Shown piece after piece: positions 2,112 through 7,192 of a DNA stretch of 32,173 nt. How positions within the stretch are numbered: the stretch's first letter is position 1; each line of letters begins with the position of its first letter. This stretch comes from Ralstonia sp. TCR112. GTDB lineage: Bacteria; Pseudomonadota; Gammaproteobacteria; Burkholderiales; Burkholderiaceae. Where the stretch lies: positions 1 through 32,173 of the forward strand of contig NZ_VOSS01000040.1 in NCBI RefSeq assembly GCF_007997035.1. The letters are read 5' to 3'. The translations under genes were made by a program, and so were the position numbers. A model generated the notes under the pieces. It searched no databases and had not been told where the DNA came from. It worked only from the letters and a program-made list of their open reading frames with translations.

Positions 2112-3767
2112 ATGTCCGAAGCAGTCCTGCATCCATTTTTCTCGCGCGAGCGCACCGTCGCCGCGGTTGGTTTCAACCGCTGGCTGGTTCCGCCTGCCGC
2201 TCTGGCCATCCATCTGTGCATCGGCATGGCCTACGGTTTCTCCGTCTTCTGGCTGCCGCTTGGCCGCGCGCTGGGCATCACCAAGCCGCTCACCTGCGGC
2301 GCCGATGTCTCGCTGATCGCCGAGCTGTTCACCACCACCTGCGACTGGCGCGTCTCCAGTCTGGGCTGGATGTTTACGCTCTTCTTCGTGTTCCTCGGCG
2401 CATCCGCTGCCATGTGGGGCGGCTGGCTCGAGCGCGTTGGCCCGCGCAAGGCCGGTGTCGTGTCGGCCGTGTGCTGGTGCGGCGGGCTGTTGATTTCCGC
2501 GCTCGGCATCCAGATGCACCAGCTGTGGCTGCTGTGGGTGGGCTCGGGCGTGATCGGCGGCATCGGCTTGGGGCTGGGCTACATCTCGCCCGTGTCCACG
2601 CTCATCAAGTGGTTCCCCGACAAGCGCGGCATGGCCACTGGCATGGCAATCATGGGCTTCGGCGGCGGCGCGATGATCGGCGCCCCGCTGGCTGACCGCC
2701 TGATGAAGCTGTTTGCGACACCCGAATCGGTGGGTGTGTCGCAAACGTTTATCGTGCTCGCCGGCATCTACTTCGTGTTCATGATGGCCGGCGCGCTGGG
2801 TTACCGCGTGCCGCCCACGGGCTGGAAACCGGCTGGCTGGACGCCCTCGCCCGCCAAGGCGAAGGACACGATGGTCACGCAACGCCATGTCCACGCAAAT
2901 GAAGCGCTGAAGACGCCGCAGTTCTGGCTGATCTGGGCCGTGCTGTGCCTGAATGTGTCGGCCGGTATTGGCGTGCTCGGCATGGCGTCGCCGCTGCTGC
3001 AGGAAGTGTTTGGCGGCAAGCTGCTGGGCGTGACGACGTCGTTCATGGACCTGACGGCCGCGCAAAAGGGCCAGATCGCGGCCATCGCTGCGGGCTTCAC
3101 GGGCCTGCTGAGCCTGTTCAACATCGGCGGCCGTTTCTTCTGGGCCTCGCTGTCGGATCGCCTGGGCCGCAAGATGACGTACGCAGTCTTCTTCGTGCTG
3201 GGCTTCGTGCTGTACGCATCGATTCCGTGGACGTCGCACACCGGCAATATCGCGCTGTTCGCACTGGCTTTCTGCGTGATCCTGTCGATGTACGGCGGCG
3301 GTTTTGCGACTGTGCCAGCCTATCTGGCCGACATGTTCGGCACGCAGATGGTGGGTGCCATCCACGGCCGCCTGCTCACGGCGTGGTCGACCGCCGGCAT
3401 TCTGGGCCCCGTGCTGGTGAACTACCTGCGCGAATACCAGATCGCCCATGGCGTGGAACGCGCAGCCGTGTACGACATCACGATGATGATCCTGGCGGGC
3501 CTGCTGATCCTCGGCTTCATCTGCAACCTGCTGGTGCGCCCCGTCAACGCGAAGCACTTCATGACCGAAGCGCAACTCGACGAACAGCGTCACGCTGCGG
3601 CAACCAAGAGCCCGACGCCGTCGGTGGCTGCGCCGGAAACGTCGCTGGAATGGAAGGCGCACCCGGGCTCGGCCGTGGCTGTGGTGCTGGCCTGGGCCGC
3701 CGTGGGGCTGCCGTTGGGCTGGGGGGTTTGGATTACACTCCAAAAAGCTGCCGTTCTGTTCTCCTGA
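2112..3767 (+). CDS. OFA-family MFS transporter (oxalate/formate antiporter-like) with an extra C-terminal membrane helix
   Basis: A polytopic inner-membrane transporter of the oxalate:formate antiporter (OFA) group of the major facilitator superfamily, 551 residues. About 12 hydrophobic segments are visible, starting with AALAIHLCIGMAYGFSVFWLPLG. Between the first two helices there is a long insertion (about residues 55-80) containing two Cys, and an MFS-type loop WLERVGPRKAG follows helix 2. OFA proteins usually end soon after helix 12. Here a linker (about 480-515) leads to one further hydrophobic helix, VVLAWAAVGLPLGWGVWITL. That helix resembles the separate 'MFS transporter small subunit' proteins often encoded beside OFA genes, which suggests a fusion. 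A G-rich ribosome binding site stands at 2102-2107. The formate dehydrogenase-like gene starts 28 bp downstream, so formate, oxalate or a related small carboxylate is the inferred substrate; the sequence alone does not fix which. Confidence 0.85.
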   Translation: MSEAVLHPFFSRERTVAAVGFNRWLVPPAALAIHLCIGMAYGFSVFWLPLGRALGITKPLTCGADVSLIAELFTTTCDWRVSSLGWMFTLFFVFLGASAAMWGGWLERVGPRKAGVVSAVCWCGGLLISALGIQMHQLWLLWVGSGVIGGIGLGLGYISPVSTLIKWFPDKRGMATGMAIMGFGGGAMIGAPLADRLMKLFATPESVGVSQTFIVLAGIYFVFMMAGALGYRVPPTGWKPAGWTPSPAKAKDTMVTQRHVHANEALKTPQFWLIWAVLCLNVSAGIGVLGMASPLLQEVFGGKLLGVTTSFMDLTAAQKGQIAAIAAGFTGLLSLFNIGGRFFWASLSDRLGRKMTYAVFFVLGFVLYASIPWTSHTGNIALFALAFCVILSMYGGGFATVPAYLADMFGTQMVGAIHGRLLTAWSTAGILGPVLVNYLREYQIAHGVERAAVYDITMMILAGLLILGFICNLLVRPVNAKHFMTEAQLDEQRHAAATKSPTPSVAAPETSLEWKAHPGSAVAVVLAWAAVGLPLGWGVWITLQKAAVLFS

Positions 3768-3795
3768 CATCTGATCCAACGCCGCCCCGCCACCC

Positions 3796-6135: not shown

Positions 6136-6380
6136 TGCCAACCGAGCCGGCGTGGTCTGCGCTGCAACTGGCGCTGCTGGCGGCATTGCGCGAAACCGAC
6201 GCCGGCAAGCCGGTATCGCTGCCCTGGCTGACCAAGCGCGTGGGCGAGCGCGCCAGCACGGTGCTGCGCGCGCTGCATCCCTTGGCCGATGCCGGCCTGC
6301 TGCGCGTTGCCATGGACGACACGCGCTGGCTCATTGTGCTGCTCGACGCCGGCCGCGCCTTGCCCGATTTCACTGCATGA
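6135..6380 (+). CDS. Small winged-helix-like protein between the formate dehydrogenase-like gene and fdhD
   Basis: An 81-residue protein that I cannot assign to a named family. It begins at ATG 6135 inside TGATG (one base shared with the upstream stop) and ends in ATGA, sharing four bases with fdhD, so it is almost certainly translated by coupling. Predicted helices around LQLALLAALRE, SLPWLTKRVGE and STVLRALHPLADAGLL, followed by a short strand region RVAMDDTRWLIVLLDAG, give the order expected of a small winged-helix domain. No cysteines and no membrane segment are present. It could be a DNA-binding regulator of the operon, or a structural or accessory factor for the oxidoreductase, much as small subunits accompany other formate dehydrogenases. 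Its position between enzyme and sulfurtransferase favours an accessory role, but that is inference. Confidence 0.75.
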   Translation: MPTEPAWSALQLALLAALRETDAGKPVSLPWLTKRVGERASTVLRALHPLADAGLLRVAMDDTRWLIVLLDAGRALPDFTA

Positions 6381-7192
6381 CTGCCCTGCCCCACCAATCC
6401 ACCGGCTTGCCCGTCGTTTCCGCCTCCGCGATGAAACGCACGCGGGCCGGCGCGCAAGAAGACACCCCCACCGCCGTCGCCGATGAAGCCCCGGTAGCGC
6501 TTGTCTTCAACGGCATCACGCATGCGGTGATGATGGCGTCGCCGACTGATCTGGAAGATTTCGCGCTGGGCTTTGCGCTGTCGGAAGGCATCATCGACGG
6601 TCGCGCCGATTGGCGTGGCGCAGACGTGGAAACGCGTCCGCATGGGCTCGAAGTGCATGCGGAAATCGCCTCGCATTGCTTCGTGCGGCTGAAGGAACGC
6701 CGCCGCGCCTTGGCGGGGCCGACCGGCTGCGGCCTCTGCGGCATTGAAAGCCTGCAGACGTTTGAAGAGGCACCGGTGCCGCTGGTGCCGCCCGCATGGC
6801 TGGCGTCATTGAGCGACGCACAGGTGCTGGACGCCATGCAGGCGATGACGGCGCATCAGCCCGCCAACGCGCTCACGGGAGGCTTGCATGCTGCAGGCTG
6901 GGTGCCCGCAGACGCTAACGCACCGCTGCATGTGCTGGAAGACGTGGGACGCCACAACGCGCTCGACAAGCTGATCGGCAGGCTGGCGCGACTCGGCATC
7001 CGTCCCGCAGATGGCTTCATCGTCATGACAAGCCGCGCGAGCTTTGAGTTGTCGCGCAAATGCGTGCAACTACAGGTGCCGCTGCTGGCGACGATCTCCG
7101 CGCCTTCTTCGCTGGCGATCCGTCACGCCAAGGCCGGGCAGTTGACGCTCCTGGCGTTCTGTCGGGGCGATAGCGTGACGCGGTTTGCGTAG
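6377..7192 (+). CDS. fdhD: FdhD, formate dehydrogenase accessory sulfurtransferase
   Basis: FdhD passes sulfur from the cysteine desulfurase IscS to the molybdenum cofactor of formate dehydrogenases, which need the sulfido ligand for activity. The 271-residue protein starts at ATG 6377, which overlaps the preceding stop as ATGA; an open frame continues upstream but lies inside the neighbouring gene. The conserved Cys pair is C118 and C121 in TGCGLCGIES, equivalent to the C-x-x-C loop of E. coli FdhD. The block LEDVGRHNALDKLIG (about residues 187-201) and the later MTSRASFELSRKCVQ are family hallmarks. Being last in the operon, it very probably serves the molybdopterin enzyme encoded at 3796-6135. 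Confidence 0.95.
   Translation: MTALPHQSTGLPVVSASAMKRTRAGAQEDTPTAVADEAPVALVFNGITHAVMMASPTDLEDFALGFALSEGIIDGRADWRGADVETRPHGLEVHAEIASHCFVRLKERRRALAGPTGCGLCGIESLQTFEEAPVPLVPPAWLASLSDAQVLDAMQAMTAHQPANALTGGLHAAGWVPADANAPLHVLEDVGRHNALDKLIGRLARLGIRPADGFIVMTSRASFELSRKCVQLQVPLLATISAPSSLAIRHAKAGQLTLLAFCRGDSVTRFA

Follow-up and report, generated by a model that had tools for sequence, protein, structure and literature searches.

A conserved operon of Ralstonia sp. TCR112 for a predicted FDH4-type formate dehydrogenase and its small winged-helix protein, a candidate maturation partner

The window analyzed here is a stretch of 32,173 nucleotides from Ralstonia sp. TCR112 (contig NZ_VOSS01000040.1, positions 1 to 32,173 of the forward strand). 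At positions 2112 to 7192 it carries an operon for a transporter of the major facilitator superfamily (MFS), a YdeP-type molybdopterin oxidoreductase, a small winged-helix protein and the accessory sulfurtransferase FdhD. We propose, with a probability of roughly 0.6, that the operon encodes a cytoplasmic FDH4-type formate dehydrogenase and that the small protein is its dedicated Fdh4B partner in maturation. In this model YdeP/Fdh4A would be the catalytic subunit, and FdhD would sulfurate its molybdenum or tungsten bis-pyranopterin cofactor. The small winged-helix protein (Fdh4B) would most likely serve as a protein-protein adaptor that binds to YdeP and delivers it to FdhD, or that stabilizes the immature enzyme, while the transporter would move a small monocarboxylate, either formate or a related acid. 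The four genes are as follows.

2112..3767, + strand: MFS transporter of the oxalate/formate-antiporter-like (OFA) group, 551 residues (MFS_1; best equivalog NF049980)
3796..6135, + strand: FdhF/YdeP-type (Fdh4A-type) molybdopterin oxidoreductase, 779 residues (TIGR01701)
6135..6380, + strand: 81-residue winged-helix protein, probable Fdh4B-type companion of YdeP/Fdh4A (predicted structure, co-occurrence, adjacency)
6377..7192, + strand: FdhD, formate dehydrogenase accessory sulfurtransferase, 271 residues (TIGR00129, CGxCG motif)

YdeP-type enzymes occur in many Proteobacteria, and both their maturation and their electron route are open questions in the parts of the literature consulted. A small family that follows YdeP in Alpha-, Beta- and Gammaproteobacteria, and that is fused to FdhD in one genus, offers a handle on both. 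If the proposal is true, Fdh4B can be assigned a fold and a relative of solved structure, along with a role open to experimental test.

The small winged-helix family and its ties to YdeP and FdhD

The 81-residue protein scores above the cut-off of no Pfam or NCBIfam model, MarR profiles included. Its structure, predicted from an alignment of 33 rows, is a winged helix with a mean pLDDT of 91.9. The nearest solved chains found with Foldseek and VIA-align are mostly MarR-type regulators, with 2OBP among the rows listed. That entry is the putative DNA-binding protein Reut_B4095 of Ralstonia eutropha (Cupriavidus) JMP134, and it is a solved member of the small family: it is matched by the family profile A1 (E 2e-17) and by the copy from Cupriavidus BIS7 (E 5.1e-15), and its fold matches as well. 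The preliminary description of this DNA had left the 81-residue partner unassigned; it belongs instead to a family with a solved member, and that family is very probably Fdh4B. The difference lies in the title of 2OBP, which is that of a putative DNA-binding protein, and a predicted winged-helix fold alone would not decide between binding to DNA and binding to protein. Cysteine is present in 20 of the 33 family sequences but in no conserved column. The copy in the window has none, so the small protein is unlikely to carry electrons.

The small family is closely associated with ydeP. Relatives found with the iterated profile stand beside ydeP in 34 of 80 loci: directly downstream in 26, 2.3 kb downstream in one (L057), divergently 60 to 198 bp upstream in five and divergently 1.6 to 1.7 kb upstream in two. 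Some of these loci have short flanks, and a missing neighbor there is no proof of absence. On the YdeP tree the distribution of the small gene requires 10 changes, compared with 26.5 in shuffles. Among 300 genomes of the window's order, the family was found in 21 and ydeP in 35, with all 21 falling within the 35; the small gene lies directly downstream of ydeP in 17, 2.4 kb downstream in one and divergently, at 1.6, 1.7 and 8.9 kb, in three. These searches score at most 18 candidates per genome in one case and 3 in the other, and weak or extra copies may therefore be missed; in two of the 21 matches (G1157 and G891) the aligned stretch is interrupted by an in-frame stop. Since the genes used to build profile A1 were neighbors of ydeP, the profile is biased toward such genes; as a control, the 265 genomes of the order sample that have no ydeP match yielded no small-family match at E 1e-8. 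The preliminary description would have been refuted by a small gene missing from most relatives; the gene is instead present in 15 of the 17 rows of the window's own YdeP clade, the window included, as well as in those 21 of 35 ydeP-bearing genomes of the order.

A similar picture emerged among the relatives of FDH4. The order of M. symbioticum was covered by 249 genomes; 20 of them have the small family, and 18 of these copies adjoin ydeP while the two weakest matches do not. Behind the Methylobacterium orthologues of Fdh4A (84 to 100% identity), the small gene follows directly in all 30 that were fetched of the 49 such matches listed. FDH4 of Methylobacterium (Methylorubrum) extorquens AM1, the product of fdh4AB, resembles the system in the window in having an FdhF/YdeP-type catalytic subunit and an adjacent second gene, and its arrangement of catalytic gene followed by small gene recurs in the window at 3796 to 6380. 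In the portions of the published work consulted, fdh4A and fdh4B are adjacent in AM1 (META1p2093/2094) and Fdh4B is termed subunit B. Because fdh4B adjoins fdh4A in AM1 and the small gene lies behind all 30 Methylobacterium orthologues, the small family is, judged by gene position in the Methylobacterium loci, very probably Fdh4B. The likeness to FDH4 is not complete, as the M. symbioticum copy (L077) has neither FdhD nor an OFA-type transporter in its fetched flanks.

Three further features connect the small protein with the enzyme and with its maturation factor. First, the chosen start of the small gene lies between 17 nt before and 5 nt after the ydeP stop in 14 of the 21 tandem loci examined (26 loci are tandem in all). 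Second, pairwise distances between small proteins correlate with those between the YdeP proteins of the same 33 loci (r 0.85, with none of 2,000 permutations as high), a correlation from which host ancestry was not removed and which shared host ancestry alone can give. Third, 16 of 17 genomes in the genus of Acidovorax sp. Leaf160 encode the winged helix together with FdhD in one uninterrupted open frame. The YdeP sequence ends just upstream of these fusions, and the 17th genome has an FdhD with neither winged helix nor YdeP in the fetched stretch. Gene fusions usually join proteins that act together. Because of the fusion to FdhD, the coupling of the start to the ydeP stop and the distance correlation, we favor a physical maturation partner over a free-standing regulator. 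We put forward more tentatively the broader idea that evolution has turned a winged helix of the DNA-binding type into a dedicated maturation subunit for a widespread class of formate dehydrogenases, one that links FdhD to YdeP-type enzymes, as the fusion to FdhD suggests; it would then be a new family of molybdoenzyme chaperones.

Published work on fdh4B, on FdhD fusions and on FdhD operons, in the portions consulted, nowhere describes Fdh4B as a winged helix or as fused to FdhD. Literature searches for a winged helix in the maturation of formate dehydrogenase or in sulfurtransferase maturation, and for the winged helix of 2OBP, found no paper. Within the searches made, what looks new is that the small gene belongs to a winged-helix family associated with ydeP and that it can be fused to FdhD. 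A fusion of the small gene to ydeP was suspected in locus L019 and was rejected, as the coordinates place the two in different frames. In a single case, from Luteimonas colneyensis (L038, 8285-9394), one open frame encodes a winged helix along with a response-regulator-like domain.

The operon, its predicted catalytic subunit and FdhD

The four plus-strand genes form one tight unit. A gap of 28 bp separates the transporter gene from ydeP, ydeP and the small gene overlap by 1 nt (TGATG, 6133-6137), and the small gene and fdhD overlap by 4 nt (ATGA, 6377-6380), just as the preliminary description had it. The survey of gene order that it suggested also agrees, with the same order in all 11 same-genus stretches that span the operon. 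Across these stretches, identity to the window is 95 to 100% for the transporter, 96 to 99% for YdeP, 86 to 98% for the small protein and 78 to 93% for FdhD; in one of them (L164) the FdhD alignment covers just 162 of 271 residues. A twelfth same-genus stretch (L165) ends at a contig edge inside ydeP and falls outside the 11. All of these counts refer to stretches with matches listed, from which a genus-wide frequency is not derivable. The operon is thus a real, conserved unit. Beyond the genus, all four genes occur together in 6 of the 80 ydeP loci and their order is shuffled between genera: it is OFA-YdeP-small-FdhD in Rhizobacter and Acidovorax loci and OFA-FdhD-YdeP-small in Xanthomonas and Luteimonas-type loci. 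None of the four genes encodes an electron acceptor, a point on which the preliminary description was also right.

The large gene encodes a predicted formate dehydrogenase catalytic subunit. Its product exceeds the cut-off of TIGR01701 (1000.5 bits against 582.15), and it is the only copy in the genome to do so; its best match in the Protein Data Bank (PDB) is the alpha subunit of a formate dehydrogenase (155.7 bits). Residues C183-H184 and R404 are invariant in all 81 rows of the YdeP alignment, which consists of the window and the 80 loci, and make up a predicted active site of the formate dehydrogenase type, in which the molybdenum-ligand Cys is followed by His (CxxxCH in the preliminary description). 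We take these residues to correspond to the Sec/Cys-His pair and the Arg of formate dehydrogenase H, with R404 in the PVRG block. Two of the rows (L047 and L057) have a stop in the aligned stretch, near the C-terminal end by coordinates. The same alignment reveals a further site in the N-terminal part of the protein.

3943..3996, + strand: YdeP N-terminal motif C50, C53, D57, C67, a candidate metal-cluster site (81-row alignment)

The three cysteines are kept in 81 of 81 proteins; the residue at position 57 is Asp in 73 of them and Glu in the other 8. Other formate dehydrogenases have a further Cys at this position, in a four-Cys cluster motif. The three-Cys-plus-acid pattern suggests a [3Fe-4S] cluster or an acid-ligated [4Fe-4S] cluster.

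The role of FdhD is the sulfuration of the formate dehydrogenase cofactor. The FdhD of the operon scores 178.5 bits against TIGR00129 (cut-off 140.9), and the CGxCG motif is present in all 31 aligned FdhD rows, the window included. A second FdhD of the genome is located on a separate contig.

Evidence that YdeP-type enzymes act on formate comes from two known systems, each taken here from those parts of the papers that were available. In Pseudomonas putida, ydeP (PP_0256) and fdhD (PP_0257) are formate induced and share one transcript, their joint deletion makes cells formate sensitive, and a plasmid carrying both genes restores growth; two YdeP-type enzymes are described as major formate dehydrogenases of this organism. 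PP_0256-PP_0257 is thus like the window in pairing a YdeP-type oxidoreductase with FdhD, the two being needed together for formate tolerance. In contrast to the window, fdhD lies upstream of ydeP in Pseudomonas loci where the two are adjacent, and no small winged-helix gene is found there. In M. extorquens, Fdh4A is involved in formate oxidation, among the single formate dehydrogenase knockouts of AM1 only that of fdh4 measurably affects growth, and both fdh4A and fdh4B increase together with lanthanum. Taken with the family assignments, these reports make it most probable that the operon encodes a formate dehydrogenase of the FDH4 kind.

A few loci show irregular ydeP copies. Genome G455 has extra ydeP copies or fragments (L150, L151 and L152). 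In L150 and L151 the first 29 codons of the small gene are followed by unrelated sequence, and two of the three loci lie at contig ends inside ydeP, so that a ydeP segment seems to be repeated. In Variovorax sp. E3 (L032, 8292-8628), the ydeP frame stays open to 8628, about 300 bases beyond the end of the match, and there overlaps the small gene in a different frame.

Evidence against a dedicated partner and alternative explanations

Several observations weigh against the proposal of a formate dehydrogenase with a dedicated maturation partner. Arg45, in the recognition helix, is the sole invariant residue in the 33 small-family sequences, and together with a MarR-type DNA-binding fold this is what would be expected of a DNA binder. 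The five loci in which the small gene is divergent at 60 to 198 bp upstream of ydeP have a regulator-like layout. The association with ydeP is also looser in places. A profile search at E 1e-6 that took in 47 genomes found the small family in none of the 15 Pseudomonas genomes with ydeP, which means that YdeP can work without the small protein. The fetched DNA of two members of the window's clade, Giesbergeria (L033) and Aquabacterium (L037), and that of plasmid loci of Comamonas endophytica (L213) and Aquabacterium olei (L214), contains no small-family member. Within the same family as the window, three stretches of about 14 kb with the small gene (L146, L147 and L149) gave no YdeP match, and in L146 the small gene comes, by eye, after a LysR-like gene. 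Three published results, from papers seen in part, also belong here: in P. putida, ydeP and fdhD were deleted jointly; an earlier deletion of fdhD, cited in the P. putida paper, left CO2 release from formate almost unchanged; and formate-adapted M. extorquens growing on formate had fdh4A at 0.42-fold and fdh4B at 0.43-fold. In g283, the genus of that family to which L146 belongs, the small gene is located 9.6 to 22 kb from ydeP in six of six genomes.

The alternative that best survives is that the small winged-helix protein is a local autoregulator of the operon, whose fusion to FdhD would couple regulation to the state of cofactor maturation. We consider this unlikely, while noting that the fold, the predominance of MarR-type regulators in the top Foldseek and VIA-align rows, the invariant Arg45 and the five divergent loci all speak for it, as does a MarR-like basic wing that is visible by eye in rhizobial members. 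A conserved inverted repeat upstream of the operon speaks for it as well.

1883..1902, + strand: inverted repeat TTATGT-N8-ACATAA (same-genus upstream alignment and pattern scan)
1924..1946, + strand: second genus-conserved block, TTGCG..CGCAATACAACGG (alignment of 12 same-genus upstream sequences, few substitutions)

The repeat is present in 12 of 12 same-genus sequences (the window and 11 aligned loci) and occurs once in the window, where 0.01 occurrences are expected; it is probably a regulator site. Scans of loci from other genera that carry the small gene did not turn up the exact pattern, which counts against an autoregulator. At about 81 residues the protein is also without dimerization helices, which full MarR proteins have, and both its close coupling downstream of the catalytic gene and the FdhD fusion suit a protein partner better. 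The second block is part of the conserved footprint that precedes the first gene. A promoter scan of positions 1700 to 7400 found no sigma-70-type site. Inspection by eye of the conserved GG...GC in the upstream block raised the possibility of a sigma-54 site, which was rejected because its spacing is one base short.

A second alternative, which we regard as quite improbable, is that the YdeP enzyme does not act on formate but on another substrate, for instance reducing chlorate-like oxyanions or contributing to acid resistance, and that the operon is not formate-catabolic. It draws on partly consulted reports that link ydeP of E. coli to acid resistance, find YdeP with chlorite dismutase and list it as a possible chlorate reductase, and on the fact that the transporter is not assignable to formate. 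E. coli YdeP does belong to the same family, TIGR01701, but the protein in the window falls below the cut-off of the PRK09939 equivalog (934.9 against 1473). The formate sensitivity and rescue seen with PP_0256-0257 and the involvement of Fdh4A in oxidizing formate stand against a different substrate, as do the Cys-His and Arg residues conserved in every aligned protein and the adjoining fdhD. A further point against it is that the ydeP gene on the C. endophytica plasmid lies near a gene for S-(hydroxymethyl)glutathione dehydrogenase (L213, 1713-2825), a neighborhood hinting at formaldehyde-to-formate detoxification.

The transporter and the question of oxalate

The preliminary description had presented the operon as a self-contained unit for the import and oxidation of formate or a related acid, noting that OFA transporters exchange oxalate and formate. 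A probable formate-oxidizing unit with its own FdhD and a conserved small partner is retained from that account, and oxalate/formate exchange is not. The transporter falls well below both oxalate/formate models (150.6 against 374.85 for TIGR00890, 125.2 against 335 for TIGR04259) and just below the L-lactate model NF049980, its best equivalog (311.3 bits against 320). The two solved chains that match it by sequence are SfMCT (L-lactate) and OxlT (oxalate:formate). In alignments with them the Arg position is shared, and they differ in that the transporter is under both curated cut-offs and lacks the second basic residue of OxlT. An Arg and a Lys form the oxalate-site pair of OxlT; in the alignment to OxlT (8hpj) the Lys position is Trp, and the same position in SfMCT is Cys. 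A profile search of the genome for oxalyl-CoA decarboxylase gave a best match of 201 bits against a cut-off of 739.4, and with no such enzyme above the cut-off a route from oxalate to formate is not backed. From its sequence the transporter is predicted to move a monocarboxylate, probably, and this is likelier than oxalate. An exchanger that supplies oxalate-derived formate to the dehydrogenase is therefore very improbable indeed: membership in the broad OFA-type group and an OFA tail domain above its cut-off speak for it, and the two low model scores, the Trp in place of the OxlT Lys and the lack of a decarboxylase match above the cut-off speak against it.

A close relative of the transporter is encoded upstream of ydeP in 8 of the 80 loci; every one of these belongs to the window's clade and has the small gene too. 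The tail domain forms the C-terminal end of the transporter.

3675..3761, + strand: transporter C-terminal tail, "MFS transporter small subunit" domain NF047966 (33.6 bits, cut-off 24, residues 522-550)

The name of this domain suggests that the tail is perhaps a separate small protein elsewhere.

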